This document shows positions 51,547 to 57,576 of a DNA stretch of 64,000 nucleotides, one piece after another. Location: NCBI GenBank assembly GCA_016744065.1, contig JADGFA010000012.1, positions 20,367 to 84,366 on the forward strand, read 5' to 3'. Position 1 is the stretch's first letter, and each line of letters opens with the position of its first letter. The position numbers and the translations under genes are program-made. The notes below the pieces were generated by a model. It saw only the letters and a program-made list of their open reading frames with translations. It was not told the origin of the DNA and did no database searches. The DNA is from Gammaproteobacteria bacterium. Its GTDB lineage: Bacteria; Pseudomonadota; Gammaproteobacteria; SZUA-229.

Positions 51547-51864
51547 TCAACTATCCTGTATTTTATTCATTATCTCACTAAGCGTATAAAACTGACCATT
51601 ACGCATGAAACCGGCAATAATTTCATCTTTTAGTGTGAGCGCGATACCCCTGTCATCTTTTTCATTTATCCAGCATTCAGGTAAACCATCAAATAAATGC
51701 ATGACAGATAAGTCACCATTTTGATCCTGAGATAAATGAACCTGATGATTCTGTAAATTTTTAAATGCAGGCATAAATCCAAAGCTAATATCGCTAAAGA
51801 CAATACCATTAAACTGATGATATACACCCTGCTGTCGAACGGCCTGATGATGTGACATATACAT
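51547..51864 (-). CDS. Conserved hypothetical protein, 105 residues
   Basis: A small soluble protein with no signal or membrane helix. It contains FGFMPAFKNLQNHQVHLS, LFDGLPECW and DEIIAGFMRNGQFYTLSEIM, a pattern I have the impression of seeing in other proteobacterial hypothetical proteins, but I cannot name the family. ATGs at 51864 and 51858 are both possible starts; neither has a clear ribosome site. It lies 84 bp past the last gene of the MCE operon on the same strand, so it may or may not share that transcript. Confidence 0.6.
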   Translation of the reverse strand: MYMSHHQAVRQQGVYHQFNGIVFSDISFGFMPAFKNLQNHQVHLSQDQNGDLSVMHLFDGLPECWINEKDDRGIALTLKDEIIAGFMRNGQFYTLSEIMNKIQDS

Positions 51865-51948: not shown

Positions 51949-52542
51949 TTATTTTTTATTCTGGAGATCCTCTACCAGTTCACTGGATATTCGCTCTAAG
52001 GCTGTTCCAAAGAGCTCAGCAGTGGCGTGCATACCCTTTGTAGACACTTTTTCATTGAAATGGTAGCGTTTAGTCCAGAAGTAATCTGAAGCATGACCAG
52101 TTCGTACAGACACCTCAAGCGCAACGTCGATACCGACACTCTGAGCATCTATAATTCGTTCAAAATGAATAATGCGAGTATCTATAATAAGATCAGGCCG
52201 ATTTTCTGATACATCACGGCTAACCTGAGCCGCCAGACCACTTGATTGCATCCCCTGGTATAAAGCTCTGTGAACAAGCTCCGCAGGTGTAGTCGCCCAG
52301 AAACTATAATGATAGCGCTGAAGCTCCAGTGGTTTATCACGCTCAATAAATAAAATAGCTCGCTCATGATATAAGCCTGTGGACTTCACCAGCTTAATTA
52401 CAATATTCTTATACAATACAGGTTGAGGGCCGAGTATTACTTCAGGTAAACGATAAAAGTGATCCTGAGGTGCAGAGCCACTACCCAAACTACAGGATTC
52501 GGAACTCATTGCCAAAAATAATAACAAAATTAATCGATACAT
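51949..52542 (-). CDS. PqiC/DUF330-type transport auxiliary lipoprotein
   Basis: Last gene of the MCE operon. The 197 residues have a hydrophobic signal and Cys17 in SSESCSLG; the residues before Cys are a poor lipobox, so lipidation is probable but not certain. The body follows the DUF330 pattern: HFYRLPEV, IVIKLVKSTGLYHERAILF, LELQRYHYSFWATTPAELVH, LIIDTRIIHFER and TSKGMHATAELFGTALERIS. PqiC-like proteins sit in the outer membrane and connect to MCE complexes. It lies 9 bp after the MCE protein gene. Confidence 0.85.
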   Translation of the reverse strand: MYRLILLLFLAMSSESCSLGSGSAPQDHFYRLPEVILGPQPVLYKNIVIKLVKSTGLYHERAILFIERDKPLELQRYHYSFWATTPAELVHRALYQGMQSSGLAAQVSRDVSENRPDLIIDTRIIHFERIIDAQSVGIDVALEVSVRTGHASDYFWTKRYHFNEKVSTKGMHATAELFGTALERISSELVEDLQNKK

Positions 52543-52551
52543 TTATATACC

Positions 52552-53406
52552 TTACTTATCTACAGGCGCTTTACCACCCAGTAATACACCCGGATTATTA
52601 CGTAACTCACGAGTAAATTCATTCATATTCTGGCTGCTCGCATCCAGATTATACATAACGGATTCTATACGCCCAGAAATCACATCGATGGATTTTTTAA
52701 GCTCTATCACGGTATAACGAATATCTTCACTATTATCATTTAAAATTAAATCGGTTCTTGTCAATATACTATCTAGCTGGTTATTTATTCTTGTAAAACC
52801 TGTGGCCAGTTCAGATAAACTCTTGCTAGCTGAATCAGCATGTTTAAATAAATTACTGATATGTTGAGTATTTTCATCATTTAGTAAATATGAAATTTTA
52901 TTTGCAGAGTAGTTTAGTTTTGATATTAAATTATTTATATTCTTTGTTGACTGGGGAATAAACTGATTGAGTTCAAGTGCAATCGAATCAACCAGTTCCA
53001 TGATATCGACAGCTTCCGCACTTTTCAGGGTATCACCAGGTGACAAATACTGTTTAGATATACCTTGTGTTATTTCAATTTGTTTATCTGAAATAATAGC
53101 TGGCATCACAATTTGAGCCGTACTATCAGTCGGAATTTTCCAGTCTAACTTAACCTGCAACGTTAATTTATAAATTATTTTCCCCGCATTAATAACAGGT
53201 TCTACACTCTTAACCAAACCTATTTCATACCCACCATAGGTAACAATGATGCCATCCTTTATACCTGTTACTTTATTAAACTCTACATAATATTCATCTG
53301 TATCTGACTGGCCTCCGGTTATTTTATACAACATAGAAAACAACAGTATAAATCCCGCAAGAACAAAGACACCTACCATAAGATAATTTATATTTTCTTT
53401 TTTCAT
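52552..53406 (-). CDS. MCE (MlaD-like) periplasmic lipid-transport protein
   Basis: A 284-residue protein with one N-terminal membrane helix (about 8-27) and a single MCE domain (about 38-115: VEFNKVTGIKDGIIVTYGGY, IGLVKSVEPV, QIVMPAIISDKQIEITQG). A 160-residue helical tail with many Ser/Asn-rich heptads follows. MCE proteins form a hexameric ring that shuttles phospholipids between membranes. The helical tail is longer than in E. coli MlaD (183 residues total), closer to forms where the tails build a periplasmic needle. It sits 8 bp after the ATPase gene. Confidence 0.9.
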   Translation of the reverse strand: MKKENINYLMVGVFVLAGFILLFSMLYKITGGQSDTDEYYVEFNKVTGIKDGIIVTYGGYEIGLVKSVEPVINAGKIIYKLTLQVKLDWKIPTDSTAQIVMPAIISDKQIEITQGISKQYLSPGDTLKSAEAVDIMELVDSIALELNQFIPQSTKNINNLISKLNYSANKISYLLNDENTQHISNLFKHADSASKSLSELATGFTRINNQLDSILTRTDLILNDNSEDIRYTVIELKKSIDVISGRIESVMYNLDASSQNMNEFTRELRNNPGVLLGGKAPVDK

Positions 53407-53414
53407 ATTCTTAA

Positions 53415-54266
53415 CTAATATTTTTTATGATTAACAATATTTGATTTTTCAGATACTAAATCCAGATTTTTCCCTGTTAGTCTCTGCAAATACTCATCGA
53501 CATCAACCATATCACGACGTGGCTGCCTATGAAGCAAATTATAAACACGATGGTTGTCACTGTTTTTTACTTCATCTACAGTGCCGCACATTAATATTTC
53601 ACCGCGATCCAGGATAGTAATTCTATCTGCAATTTTAAACGCACTCTCCAGTTCATGAGTAACCACAACAATACTCATTCCCATCGCATCCCTCAGATTT
53701 AAAATTAACTCATCAAGTTCAGCTGATACAACTGGATCAAGCCCTGCTGAAGGCTCATCAAAAAACAATAATTTGGGATCTAGAATAATGGCCCTTGCAA
53801 GGGCTGCCCGTTTAATCATACCGCCGGATAACTGAGATGGCATTAAATCTTCAAACCCAGCCATATTAACAACTTCCAGTTTCATCTGGCTCATTATACG
53901 CATGGTGTTTACATCAAGATTTGCATGCTCACTTAGAGGCAACTGAATATTTTCAGATACACTCATTGAGCCAAACAAAGCCCCTCCCTGAAACGAAACA
54001 CCGATCTGTTTTTTCATCTGATACAATTGATTCGAGCTCATCTTTGTAATATCTTCACCCAACAACTTTATACTGCCGGAAGTTGGTTTGTTAAGACCTA
54101 ACATATAACGTAACAGGGTACTCTTTCCTGAACCACTACCTCCCATAATGACCATAATTTCGCCTTTATTTACATCAAGGCTGACACCATTGAGTATTTT
54201 CTTACTGCCATAATGAGTAATTAAATCACTGACCTGAATTATTTTTGAGTAGTTATCATTTTGCAT
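53415..54266 (-). CDS. MlaF-like ABC transporter ATPase
   Basis: The ATPase subunit of the MCE transporter. In 283 residues it has Walker A GGSGSGKST (42-50), Q-loop within GVSFQGGALFGSMSV, signature LSGGMIKRAALARA, Walker B LLFFDEPSAGLDP and switch VVVTHELESAFKIADR. The GGALFGSMSV segment and LDPVVSAELDELI are typical of MlaF/MkL. A C-terminal extension past the ATPase core (about 240-283, including RRDMVDVDEYLQRLTG) is present, as in MlaF where it aids dimer contact. The gap to the permease gene is 11 bp. Confidence 0.92.
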   Translation of the reverse strand: MQNDNYSKIIQVSDLITHYGSKKILNGVSLDVNKGEIMVIMGGSGSGKSTLLRYMLGLNKPTSGSIKLLGEDITKMSSNQLYQMKKQIGVSFQGGALFGSMSVSENIQLPLSEHANLDVNTMRIMSQMKLEVVNMAGFEDLMPSQLSGGMIKRAALARAIILDPKLLFFDEPSAGLDPVVSAELDELILNLRDAMGMSIVVVTHELESAFKIADRITILDRGEILMCGTVDEVKNSDNHRVYNLLHRQPRRDMVDVDEYLQRLTGKNLDLVSEKSNIVNHKKY

Positions 54267-54277
54267 AAAAAATCACT

Positions 54278-55069
54278 CTAAATTCGAGTTAGAAAAAAAG
54301 TAAAGATCATATCAGCAATCACTATCAGACTTATCGACATAACAACTGAGCGAGTTGTGGCAAGACCAATACCTTCTGCCCCCCCTTTAACCTGAAATCC
54401 ATTAAGCACACTTACAATAACAATGAGTATGGCAAAAATAATACTTTTTAAAACCCCCTGCATTAAATCAAATGTAGTTATTACATCAAAACTTCGACTC
54501 ATATATATATCTATCGACATACCTAATTCAAACGATGTATATACAGCACCACCGAGTAACCCCATTAAGTCACCAAATATTGTTAATACAGGCATTGCCA
54601 AAAGCATTGCTAAAAGAGCAGGTGCAGCAAGATAACGCACAGGATTAATGCCTATTACCCGTAACGCATCTATTTCCTGAGATTCAACCATGGTTCCAAT
54701 TCGTGCGGCTATAGCAGAACCAGAACGCCCTGCAACAATAATCCCCGTAATTAAGGCTGCAAATTCACGTGTTACTGAAACTGCAATTCCATTAACAACC
54801 TGAGCCTGCGCACCATAAGGCTTTAACGTTTCCAAACCCTGTATTGCCAACATCATACCTACAGAAAAACACAGCACGATTACAATAGGTGCGGCCATTA
54901 CGCCTATTTGAACAGACTGTGTAAAAATCAAATTTAAGCCAACTGCCTGCTTGTTAAGCCATCCCAGGGTCAACCAGTAAACCGACTCAATAAGCAACAT
55001 AAACCCATAACCAACTTCCTCAACTACCCCTATCGCTAACTTCCCCAGTTTTTCAATTTGAAGTTTCAT
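54278..55069 (-). CDS. MlaE-like ABC permease
   Basis: A 263-residue inner-membrane permease of the MlaE family. It has an amphipathic N-terminus, then about five membrane helices. Diagnostic segments are MLAIQGLETLKPYGAQAQVV, REFAALITGIIVAGRSGSAI, AARIGTMVESQEIDALRVIG and INPVRYLAAPALLAMLLAMP. The Glu-rich loop EEIDALR is the coupling region for the ATPase. The STAS gene lies 12 bp upstream, which is notable because STAS protein MlaB binds the ATPase in E. coli. Confidence 0.93.
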   Translation of the reverse strand: MKLQIEKLGKLAIGVVEEVGYGFMLLIESVYWLTLGWLNKQAVGLNLIFTQSVQIGVMAAPIVIVLCFSVGMMLAIQGLETLKPYGAQAQVVNGIAVSVTREFAALITGIIVAGRSGSAIAARIGTMVESQEIDALRVIGINPVRYLAAPALLAMLLAMPVLTIFGDLMGLLGGAVYTSFELGMSIDIYMSRSFDVITTFDLMQGVLKSIIFAILIVIVSVLNGFQVKGGAEGIGLATTRSVVMSISLIVIADMIFTFFLTRI

Positions 55070-55081
55070 TATGTCATTTGC

Positions 55082-55408
55082 TTATAAGCTTTCAATATCT
55101 TCGAGTGAAGCATAAATGGTAAACACCATATCAAGACGAGCTAGCTGCAAGACTTGCAGCGCTGACTCACTTACACCCACTAGGGCAAAATTTAATTTTT
55201 TAGAGCGCGCCATCTGCAGGCCTTCAACCAGGCTGGCCACACCAGAGCTATCTATATACTCAACGAGTGATAAATCAATTAATAAACTTGAATTTTTATT
55301 TATATATTCTAATATTTGTTTTCTAACATTAGGCGACTCATTTAAATCAATTTCACCTGACAGGCTAATAACTGAATAATTAAAATGCTGTGAAACCGGA
55401 TACTTCAT
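55082..55408 (-). CDS. STAS-domain anti-sigma-factor antagonist-like protein (RsbV/MlaB position)
   Basis: A single STAS domain in 108 residues. The phosphoacceptor loop IDLSLVEYIDSSGVASLVEG has Ser54 and Ser55 as in RsbV and SpoIIAA, so it can probably be phosphorylated. E. coli MlaB, which sits in the same operon position and activates the MlaFE complex, is a STAS protein not regulated this way. This gene therefore could serve both as the partner-switch antagonist and as the transporter's STAS subunit. AAGGTG precedes the ATG at good spacing; the kinase gene is 9 bp upstream. Confidence 0.9.
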   Translation of the reverse strand: MKYPVSQHFNYSVISLSGEIDLNESPNVRKQILEYINKNSSLLIDLSLVEYIDSSGVASLVEGLQMARSKKLNFALVGVSESALQVLQLARLDMVFTIYASLEDIESL

Positions 55409-55417
55409 ATAAACACC

Positions 55418-55855
55418 TTATTTTTCATTCATACAACTCGCAACAGGATTATTTAATTTCTTGCGCATTTCAAGCACATTACCTGTGCCACCCGAATTAT
55501 TTTTATACACTACACTATCCATTACTTTGTGAATAATATGCACACCTAATCCACCAGGCCTTATATCCTCAAGGTCTCTTGATTTAATGGAGTTAATATC
55601 AACAGCCTCTGCGAAATCAATTATTTTTATTAAAATATCTTCTTTTTCTTTCCAGAACTCAACAATAATTTCTTCATCATTATCATTGTATGCATGCTGT
55701 ATCACATTCATACAGGCTTCATTAACGGCCATAACCAGACAATCTAAATTCCCTTCAGAACAACCCTGTTTTTTAGCCAATAACCGCACAAACTTACGTA
55801 ACGGCTTCAACATATCTGCTCGTGACAATAAATGAATACGTTCAAGTCGAATCAT
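55418..55855 (-). CDS. RsbW-type anti-sigma factor serine kinase (HATPase)
   Basis: A 145-residue GHKL-fold ATPase. The N-box AVNEACMNVIQHAY has Glu46 and Asn50; a G1-like Asp80 is in IIDFAEAVD (the usual second Gly is Ala), and the G2 box is PGGLGVHIIH (100-109). Such kinases phosphorylate a STAS antagonist and otherwise sequester a target, classically a sigma factor. Here the gene lies between the STAS gene and the phosphatase gene with gaps of 9 and 5 bp, and no sigma factor gene is in the operon. Confidence 0.9.
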   Translation of the reverse strand: MIRLERIHLLSRADMLKPLRKFVRLLAKKQGCSEGNLDCLVMAVNEACMNVIQHAYNDNDEEIIVEFWKEKEDILIKIIDFAEAVDINSIKSRDLEDIRPGGLGVHIIHKVMDSVVYKNNSGGTGNVLEMRKKLNNPVASCMNEK

Positions 55856-55860
55856 TTTAT

Positions 55861-57576
55861 TTACATACCATCTGTTTTTTCTAATAACAATAATGTTACA
55901 TCATCACGTAACGGCTTTATTGTATTTTCTAGTTTATTAACAATTAATTTAAGTCGATTACTGGGTGAAAGTGTTTTACCCATCTTTGCTATCAATTTAA
56001 ACAGGCCACCTAATTCCAACATTGTATTTTCGTTTACAAACCCCTCAGTAACACCATCAGAATATATATACAAACTTCCATTTCCCAGCTTTATAATTGC
56101 TTTTGTATAAATTGTATCCGGCATTACACCCAAAGGCGGAGCCACTGCTTCAAACTCCTGGCAAAAACCATCTTCTAAAAAATATAACGCGGGAGGGTTG
56201 CCCGCGTTTACCAGATGAATTTCATCACTTGATGGACAATACAAACCTGCAACCATAGTAACAAACATACCATGAATAGATGTTTCACATAACTCATTAT
56301 TTATTTCATACATCAACTGGGCAGGCTCATCAATTCGCTTTCCCAGACATCTGAAAAGACTACTGGTTTTAGCCATTAATAATGCAGCATTAACGCCTTT
56401 TCCTGACACATCACCCAGGTTAAAATATATATTGCCATTATCCAGTGCAAAAAAATCATAGAAATCACCCGATAAAATTTTAGCTGATATATTTATTCCA
56501 TTTATTGGAAAACCATTTCCCTTATCTTCTGGCAATAAACTTTGCTGTATTTCTCTTGCCAGGTTTAAGTCTCGATTTATTTCTTTTGCCAGTCGATCAC
56601 GTTCATCCAGGGCCTGCTCAAGCCGCAAAGTGAGCTCCTGAAAATTAACATTATCTTCATTTAACCTTATATTAGCTTCATATAATATTTGTGAAAACGC
56701 AATGTGCTCCTGCACATGGATTTCAAGTACCAAAGCAGTCAAATCAACTTCATCAGGTATAGCCTCTAGTAGTTCTTCTGCTCGATAAGGTTCCATAAAA
56801 AAATCTTCAGATAATATTTTTCTACATCGATTTATCACATAACTTTTATCATCTGCTGTATAAACAGCCGCCATCCAGTCAGCACAATGAATAAGCTTAC
56901 AAAGCTGTTGATCCAGCTCAGACAGTCCTGAATTACTTAATATTTTATCTTTATGATAATGATGCAGTGATAACGGAAGTTGCATCTCTGGAAAAATATT
57001 CCATGCTTCCATAAATAAACTTAGTTGTGTATTGTGTTTATCATTAAATACATTTTTTTCCATAGTTAAGCGGGCATTTGGTTCACGCTTACGCAACTCT
57101 GTCCAAATTTCACCTTTATCCGGTTGCTTAAGAAATAATAAAAAACAGCCTATATCCTGAATAAAACCTGCTGTAAAACATAAACTGGCATCCAGACCAA
57201 TTAATTCCCCCAACATTCTCGCACTCACGGCTCGGCGCAACGAATCCTGCCAGAATGCCTGCATATCCAGACCCGATATTCTATACTGATTTAGTGAACT
57301 ATAAATAATCTGGATCAAGGCTAATTGAGATACACGTTCAATACCCGACAGGCTAATTGCCTGATAAACACTATTAACTTTATTCGTCAGGTTAAAATGA
57401 TCAGAATTAATTATTTTTAATAAATGCTGAAAAAAATCTGGATATTTTTCAATCAATTTATCAACAGCATGCTCCAGGTCATCACGTTGATCTGCTAAAC
57501 CAAGAAACTCCCTGACAATATCAGGTAAATCAGGTATACCTGATGTATTTAAATTAACTGTTTTATAAGCAGACAT
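55861..57576 (-). CDS. HDOD domain fused to SpoIIE/RsbU-type PP2C phosphatase
   Basis: First gene of the seven-gene operon. The 571 residues hold an HDOD domain (about 15-235, with SGIERVSQLALIQI and FTAGFIQDIGCFLLFL), a coiled-coil linker (about 305-350) and a SpoIIE-type phosphatase (about 355-571). Metal motifs are LSGDFYDFF, LGDVSGKGVNAALLMA, NAGNPPALYF, YSDGVTEGF and RDDVTLLLLE. The phosphatase should dephosphorylate the STAS protein. HDOD domains are signal-transduction modules whose ligand is generally unknown. Confidence 0.9.
   Translation of the reverse strand: MSAYKTVNLNTSGIPDLPDIVREFLGLADQRDDLEHAVDKLIEKYPDFFQHLLKIINSDHFNLTNKVNSVYQAISLSGIERVSQLALIQIIYSSLNQYRISGLDMQAFWQDSLRRAVSARMLGELIGLDASLCFTAGFIQDIGCFLLFLKQPDKGEIWTELRKREPNARLTMEKNVFNDKHNTQLSLFMEAWNIFPEMQLPLSLHHYHKDKILSNSGLSELDQQLCKLIHCADWMAAVYTADDKSYVINRCRKILSEDFFMEPYRAEELLEAIPDEVDLTALVLEIHVQEHIAFSQILYEANIRLNEDNVNFQELTLRLEQALDERDRLAKEINRDLNLAREIQQSLLPEDKGNGFPINGINISAKILSGDFYDFFALDNGNIYFNLGDVSGKGVNAALLMAKTSSLFRCLGKRIDEPAQLMYEINNELCETSIHGMFVTMVAGLYCPSSDEIHLVNAGNPPALYFLEDGFCQEFEAVAPPLGVMPDTIYTKAIIKLGNGSLYIYSDGVTEGFVNENTMLELGGLFKLIAKMGKTLSPSNRLKLIVNKLENTIKPLRDDVTLLLLEKTDGM

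Follow-up and report, generated by a model that had tools for sequence, protein, structure and literature searches.

What do the proteins of a partner switch control when they are encoded in one operon with a transporter? The question is raised by seven genes in a stretch of 64,000 nucleotides (contig JADGFA010000012.1; below called the window) from a gammaproteobacterium of the lineage SZUA-229, whose genome comprises 3.88 Mb. Three of the genes code for a phosphatase with HDOD and PP2C domains, an RsbW-type kinase and an RsbV-like STAS protein, and four for the subunits of an ATP-binding cassette (ABC) transporter. From the sequence comparisons described below we consider it probable that this is an Mla/Mpc-type transporter, likely of lipids, controlled by a phosphorylation switch in which the kinase and the HDOD-PP2C phosphatase set the state of the STAS protein and the STAS protein acts on the ATPase MlaF. 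By its kinship the pump is likely to move lipids between the two cell membranes. We also lean, if only slightly, towards the wider view that the module is a transferable and widespread kinase–phosphatase toggle of MlaF, that its phospho-STAS clutch may drive two lipid routes at once (a bridge-type MCE-PqiC and a shuttle-type MlaD-MlaC-MlaA route), and that it would be the first partner switch dedicated to an ABC transporter. The operon is composed as follows.

55861..57576, minus strand: phosphatase with HDOD and PP2C (SpoIIE-type) domains, 571 amino acids, the predicted phosphatase of the phosphorylated STAS protein with its input domain (ORF and Pfam)
55418..55855, minus strand: serine kinase of the RsbW/SpoIIAB type (HATPase_c_2), 145 amino acids (ORF and Pfam/NCBIfam)
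55082..55408, minus strand: RsbV-like STAS protein, 108 amino acids, the predicted switchable counterpart of MlaB
55241..55252, minus strand: codons of D53-S54-S55-G56 in the STAS gene, S54 being the predicted phospho-acceptor
54278..55069, minus strand: permease of the MlaE family, 263 amino acids (ORF and Pfam)
53415..54266, minus strand: ATPase of the MlaF family, 283 amino acids, of the clade that co-occurs with the switch (ORF and Pfam/NCBIfam)
53475..53498, minus strand: codons of D257-EYLQRL-T264 in the MlaF gene, with the conserved C-terminal motif Y-[LMIV]-x-x-[LMIFV]
52552..53406, minus strand: MCE protein with a long C-terminal part, 284 amino acids (ORF and Pfam/NCBIfam)
51949..52542, minus strand: PqiC-like lipoprotein (ABC_trans_aux), 197 amino acids (ORF and Pfam)

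An earlier note on this DNA had described seven genes on one strand with gaps of 5, 9, 12, 11, 8 and 9 bp, in exact agreement with the coordinates of the open reading frames (ORFs). Its seven family assignments were borne out as well, since every Pfam match lies above the curated cut-off: SpoIIE (PF07228) with 122 bits and HDOD with 104 bits in the phosphatase, HATPase_c_2 (PF13581) with 88 bits in the kinase, STAS with 67, MlaE with 220, ABC_tran (the MlaF-like ATPase) with 114, the MlaD (MCE) domain with 46 and ABC_trans_aux with 40 bits. Among the NCBIfam models, the STAS protein reaches TIGR00377, the anti-sigma-factor-antagonist superfamily (72.7 bits, cut-off 53.45), and the kinase remains below the RsbW equivalog cut-off (58 vs 145 bits). 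The equivalog cut-offs of the Mla proteins are likewise not reached in the window (MlaF 210 of 441, MlaD 70.9 of 135, MlaB 28.6 of 90 bits), nor is that of the MlaE subfamily TIGR00056 (200.4 vs 212.2 bits); MlaF is the closest NCBIfam family of the ATPase. According to Pfam the permease carries the MlaE domain only, the STAS domain being encoded by a separate gene, and neither MlaC nor MlaA is among the seven genes. The N-terminal hydrophobic stretch of the lipoprotein ends at a cysteine (SESC). The label MCE/Mla holds in so far as MlaE, MlaF-like and MCE subunits are present, but as a whole the transporter resembles Mpc, the Mla-Pqi chimera, more closely than it does Mla itself.

The arrangement is not restricted to the window. 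In an even sample of 369 genomes of the class, the kinase search gave 69 places in 67 genomes; the 68 places outside the window were fetched with flanks of up to 8 kb and annotated first with the proteins of the window, later with profiles derived from the initial matches. The thresholds for the kinase clade follow gaps in the observed scores, 55 bits with phmmer, where the gap is small (55.4 to 47.6), and 125 bits with the profile, where it is wide (125 to 85). The profile score divides the 68 places into 58 at 125 bits or more and 10 at 85 bits or less, and the kinase clade is found in 59 of the 369 genomes and in 33 families. MlaE and/or MlaF lie no further than 3.5 kb away at 52 of the 58 places, and at none of the 10 weaker RsbW-like kinases. 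The 58 places comprise 40 with the transporter of the window (type 1), 7 with another set (type 2), 3 with MlaF alone, 2 with MlaE up to the contig end and 6 with neither by threshold; two of the latter are truncated, L096 by the contig end and L110 inside the start of MlaF. The earlier note held that a neighbourhood seen only once would speak against its reading. In fact it recurs widely, and with the kinase clade in 33 families, mostly in the same neighbourhood, a chance assembly of these genes can be ruled out. The reverse search agrees: RsbW and STAS genes lie just upstream at all 15 MlaE places above 240 bits (the window included) and at 20 of 20 places of a further MlaE set, five genomes of which are shared with the kinase survey.

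A wider scan with the STAS alignment confirmed at least 585 places, of which 80 loci were kept, many overlapping with contigs of the class survey. MlaE and/or MlaF lie within 3.5 kb in 70 of these 80 loci and in none of the other 10, and the kinase adjoins the STAS gene in 77, two more being cut by a contig end. The kept loci include the strains Thiohalobacter thiocyanaticus Hrh1 and Methylohalomonas lacus HMT 1, and the closest STAS relatives among the matches listed are metagenome-assembled genomes (MAGs) labelled Gammaproteobacteria, such as SZUA-229. Outside the class, two further genomes of the phylum carry the module (L333, L334). On viral contigs 22 pattern matches were obtained and none was confirmed.

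When the MlaF of the window was used as query, the scores broke between 321 and 270 bits, and with the threshold at 321 bits this MlaF clade is present in 60 of the 369 genomes. Kinase and MlaF clade occur together in 57 genomes, the kinase only in 2, MlaF only in 3 and neither in 307 (Fisher p 1e-60, uncorrected for kinship). A genus-mate (G137) and a family-mate (G250) of the source genome lack both. Three type-1 operons have no adjoining switch: L316, L326, whose genome carries the switch elsewhere, and L327, which lies at a contig end.

The linkage of the switch to the transporter appears to have changed repeatedly. In a tree of RsbW and STAS proteins (78 rows, 21 loci having been added and labelled by hand and L110 relabelled) four context labels need 13 changes, and the well-supported branches force 3 to 5 changes per label. 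The switch loci without Mla genes (L092, L122, L125, L175, L185, L196, L212, L214, L235) adjoin Nth, FHA and PPM genes and in most cases also a DUF1841 gene; at least the FHA gene is also found at 13 of the 40 type-1 loci. The reverse case is genome G066 (L316), in which the transporter lies without a switch between DUF1841 and FHA/PPM. Four genomes possess a switch with no adjoining Mla genes, and three of them (G119, G043, G343) have a clade MlaF at another site, as part of an MlaF-MlaE-MlaD operon, whereas the fourth, G314, has no MlaF above 209 bits. Similarly, in G184 the contig is cut at the switch and the clade MlaF is on another contig, and the clade MlaF of G186, which begins at a contig end, probably completes the gene truncated in L110. 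That the switch should have been joined to the same ATPase again and again would be difficult to understand unless MlaF is the partner, and together the co-occurrence and the repeated rearrangement suggest, on genomic grounds, that MlaF is the target of the switch.

The other parts of the module are exchangeable. The earlier note named HDOD as the sensing domain, and it is present in the window, but it is only one of at least three input domains, as GAF and receiver (REC) domains replace it elsewhere. At the 58 loci there are 30 phosphatases with HDOD, 23 with another N-terminus of the PP2C protein and 5 loci with no PP2C nearby; ten non-HDOD phosphatases were scanned (6 of the 23 and 4 from the 80 kept loci), of which nine carry GAF and one a receiver domain. 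At 14 of the 58 loci kinase and phosphatase are fused into a single protein. The transporter genes vary as well. Type 1 is the Mpc-like set MlaE-MlaF-long MCE-PqiC, type 2 the order PP2C-RsbW-STAS-MlaF-MlaE-MlaD-MlaA-MlaC (L097, L111). Pfam detects MlaA and MlaC in the type-2 loci L097, L111 and L320, the MlaD of L097 is above the NCBIfam cut-off, and no mlaB was seen in type-2 loci. The MlaF gene is some 3 kb away and on the opposite strand in L126, L129, L136 and L137. Some loci combine both types: in L082 the switch is followed by a type-1 and then a type-2 set, with a single MlaF, and L085 and L084 have two permease/MCE sets about 1.0 and 2.5 kb apart with one switch and one MlaF each; MlaA and MlaC of L082 and L085 were confirmed by Pfam. 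As to other MlaF proteins in these two-set genomes, G036 and G099 have some elsewhere, with scores of at most 216 bits, and in G286 there is no further member of the clade. Sensors and permease/MCE sets are thus swapped, and the common element of nearly all these loci or genomes is the STAS protein together with the MlaF clade.

The residues required for a phosphorylation switch are conserved. The RsbV-like serine loop reported by the earlier note is present in the window as D53-S54-S55-G56, and D-S-S-G was found in all 66 STAS proteins that were picked by the kinase or by MlaE and not by the motif (not counted are L096, truncated at a contig end, and L112, with a STAS score below threshold). 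The 80 kept loci say nothing about this conservation because they were selected with the pattern VxYIDSSG[VI]A; they are also among the rows of the alignment used for the catalytic residues. In this alignment Glu46, Asn50, Asp80, Gly101, Gly102, Gly104 and Asn126 of the kinase are conserved in 125 of 125 rows, Asp371, Asp374, Asp389 and Asp507 of the PP2C domain in 115 of 115, and Asp558 and Asp559 in all 114 rows with a residue there. The STAS profile positions 41–91 align to residues 39–89 of E. coli MlaB, and since both stretches have equal length S54 falls on Thr52 of MlaB. Contig C22 of the source genome carries another mla operon, a canonical-like mlaFEDCB, whose MlaE and MlaD exceed the cut-offs and whose MlaB lacks D-S-S-G and reads FNSAS there. 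In E. coli the exchange T52E weakens binding of MlaB to MlaF and T52A abolishes the ATPase activity (PMC7367683, PMC5016091).

A second indication comes from the C-terminus of the ATPase. In E. coli the C-terminal extension of MlaF inserts Tyr261, Leu265 and Leu266 at the interface with MlaB (PMC7367683). A motif Y-[LMIV]-x-x-[LMIFV] is present within the last 45 residues of 118 of the 121 MlaF proteins of the clade; two of the three exceptions are cut by the end of the locus and the third is G066, where the switch is missing and the tyrosine is replaced by phenylalanine. In G235, also devoid of the switch, the motif is intact. The next relatives of MlaE outside the clade are longer, with an N-terminal extension that Pfam identifies as STAS_2 in some, and none of the 14 MlaF proteins adjoining such long MlaE proteins has the motif. 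In this contrast set (L065–L078), of which 7 of 14 proteins were scanned with Pfam, a STAS match above the cut-off is found in L065 only, matches below it in L070, L072 and L074, and no match in L066, L068 and L078. By eye, the N-terminal parts of the long MlaE proteins differ at the serine motif (DTAG, DFAG, DLAA, DSIG, DSAG, DSTG and others). The tail motif fits a discrete STAS partner of MlaF. With two window proteins joined as query, one natural STAS-MlaF fusion (P0079) was found, the sole one among the best 120 of 8,000 scored. It carries little weight, as it stands on a single short contig of 1,329 bases with no second example, and may be a frameshift. In its model there is a helix at the site of the MlaF tail motif, in which histidine replaces the tyrosine. 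Another candidate, P0003, was rejected as a fusion: it has an inner MlaF repeat and no STAS domain, the long repeat being likely an assembly artefact.

We suggest the following mode of action. The unphosphorylated STAS protein would bind MlaF, as MlaB does, and permit transport, so that the dephosphorylated form would be the 'on' state. Phosphorylation of Ser54 by the kinase would break or disable this contact and stop transport, and the PP2C phosphatase, under the control of HDOD, GAF or REC, would remove the phosphate and restart it. The input would be read by HDOD in the window and by a GAF or receiver domain elsewhere. Free kinase might in addition keep the STAS protein off MlaF, so that the kinase may work by sequestration as well as by phosphorylation.

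Several observations weigh against this proposal. At 4 of the 58 loci (L092, L094, L122, L125) the switch stands without Mla genes. In G314 it is present with no MlaF above 209 bits, and in G215 the kinase is seen without MlaF, the contig ending after MlaE. Conversely, G066, G235 and G011, the last with its MlaF at a contig end, hold the MlaF clade without the kinase, and L220, one of the 80 kept loci, has the STAS protein and the transporter with no adjoining kinase. The contrast in the MlaF tails sets different lineages side by side. A search with the STAS part of P0079 returned only P0079 itself among 107 candidates. An AlphaFold2 model of this fusion, made with unpaired STAS and MlaF rows, has a predicted template modelling score (pTM) of 0.70 and leaves the STAS part unplaced, with a predicted local distance difference test score (pLDDT) of 35–72; the STAS rows are 14–21% identical to P0079, whereas the STAS protein of the window reaches 50% by BLAST, and the rows were thus probably misaligned. 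The fold of the window STAS protein is nearer to RsbV, of which residues 3–102 are matched over 100 residues, than to MlaB. Finally, the T52A variant of E. coli MlaB is bound yet inactive, a behaviour that its authors find difficult to reconcile with simple phospho-control (PMC7367683).

Some of these points suit a classic partner switch whose target, a sigma factor or another regulator, is unlinked, the Mla genes being members of the regulon or hitch-hikers. The domain set is that of an Rsb/SpoIIA module, the STAS fold is RsbV-like, and four switch loci lack linked Mla genes, one of the four genomes, G314, having no MlaF of the clade at all. The earlier note had seen no sigma factor gene, which is correct for the seven genes, and had named an unlinked sigma factor as sole further partner of the STAS protein as what would overturn its reading. 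As to linkage, a search with the 12 sigma factors of the source genome as queries (phmmer and blastp) detected a sigma-factor ORF in none of 225 loci (2.8 Mb, 181 loci of at least 8 kb), although the queries retrieve each other and other queries retrieve their genes in the same database. Seven of the 12 were classified, RpoE, FliA, RpoH, RpoS and extracytoplasmic function (ECF)-type among them, and none of the seven reaches a SigB/F/G cut-off (best 114 of 234 bits). As the switch moreover follows the MlaF clade across genomes, we regard an unlinked regulator as unlikely.

Alternatively the kinase could be the output, RsbW binding and inhibiting MlaF (or MlaFE) and the unphosphorylated STAS protein relieving the inhibition by taking up the kinase. 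RsbW acts on its sigma partner in this way, and the co-occurrence data fit equally well. On the other hand, in type-1 loci and in STAS-MlaF loci the neighbour of MlaE or MlaF is the STAS gene and not the kinase gene, the C-terminal motif of MlaF recalls the dock of MlaB, and MlaB (PMC5016091) and the STAS domain fused to MpcE (PMC12436622) are transporter parts, L065 being such a fusion; we give this model a somewhat smaller chance than the unlinked regulator. It is still less probable, indeed hardly to be expected, that the STAS protein is a constitutive subunit in which Ser54 is only structural or catalytic, with kinase and phosphatase acting elsewhere. The behaviour of T52A in E. coli, bound with its ATPase activity abolished and a poor fit to simple phospho-control (PMC7367683), would agree with such a subunit, but Ser54-Ser55 is Ser-Ser at all 66 loci chosen blind to the motif, whereas the N-terminal parts of the long MlaE proteins differ there and the MlaB of the source genome has FNSAS. 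Control of MlaF through phosphorylation of the STAS protein is in our opinion the better account.

Some further observations were made. Downstream of the operon and on the same strand the window contains an ORF for 105 amino acids (51547–51864) without a Pfam or NCBIfam match. A promoter scan gave 25 sites vs 27.6 expected and 8 terminator-like sites vs 3.6 expected, and was not used. On contig C77 of the source genome (G000; L160:4167-9699) there is a second partner-switch-like pair, a HATPase-REC-PP2C protein and a STAS protein, which flanks a polysaccharide export gene; its layout we take to be that of SypE. In a family outside the class (L341, L346, L347) an RsbW-STAS pair ends a divergent operon of MlaE, a protein of about 220 amino acids, MCE and a lipoprotein-like protein, which has TPR in L346; by eye, a UbiD-like gene follows. 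In other members of this family the pair stands without MCE genes in the fetched stretch. Two loci (L196, L204) come from MAG records titled Klebsiella pneumoniae, which are probably mislabelled.

How does the module compare with known systems? RsbV-RsbW-RsbU and SpoIIAA-SpoIIAB-SpoIIE likewise consist of a STAS protein with D-S-[ST]-G, a HATPase_c_2 kinase and a PP2C phosphatase with exchangeable sensors. In contrast to them, the window module has no linked sigma factor, and a lipid transporter stands in its place. With MlaFEDB of E. coli, P. aeruginosa and A. baumannii it shares MlaE, MlaF with a C-terminal extension, MCE and a discrete STAS protein, whose S54 is in register with Thr52 of MlaB. 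It differs in its dedicated kinase and phosphatase, in Ser-Ser instead of Thr, and in a long MCE protein and PqiC-like lipoprotein in place of MlaD, MlaC and MlaA, although the type-2 relatives do have MlaD-MlaA-MlaC. The transporter itself resembles Mpc, the Mla-Pqi chimera, with MlaE, MlaF, long MCE and PqiC-like lipoprotein (EMBO J 2025, PMC12436622), but the Mpc permease carries the STAS domain as a fusion and belongs to a four-gene operon, and the accessible portion of that paper tells of no kinase or phosphatase. In SypE-SypA of Vibrio fischeri the active output is the unphosphorylated STAS protein, as proposed here; there kinase and phosphatase are in one protein and the accessible account names no known target, whereas here the linked and co-occurring MlaF is a candidate (PMC8256260). 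Phosphorylation of MlaB at Thr52 has been proposed (eLife 2016, PMC5016091; eLife 2020, PMC7367683), and the accessible portion of the latter paper states that experimental evidence was still missing and that the control of MlaB is an open question. If our proposal is right, the module provides the enzymes that a long-postulated control step of Mla-type pumps has lacked, and partner switching gains a new class of target, the ABC transporter. As kinase, phosphatase and acceptor serine share one operon, in genomes of 33 families of the class sample, the question of MlaB control could be approached with purified proteins. The earlier note knew of no described system of this form, and we found none in the literature searched, in which preprints and subscription journals are mostly missing. 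Each part belongs to a known kind; the way in which they are combined appears to be new to us.

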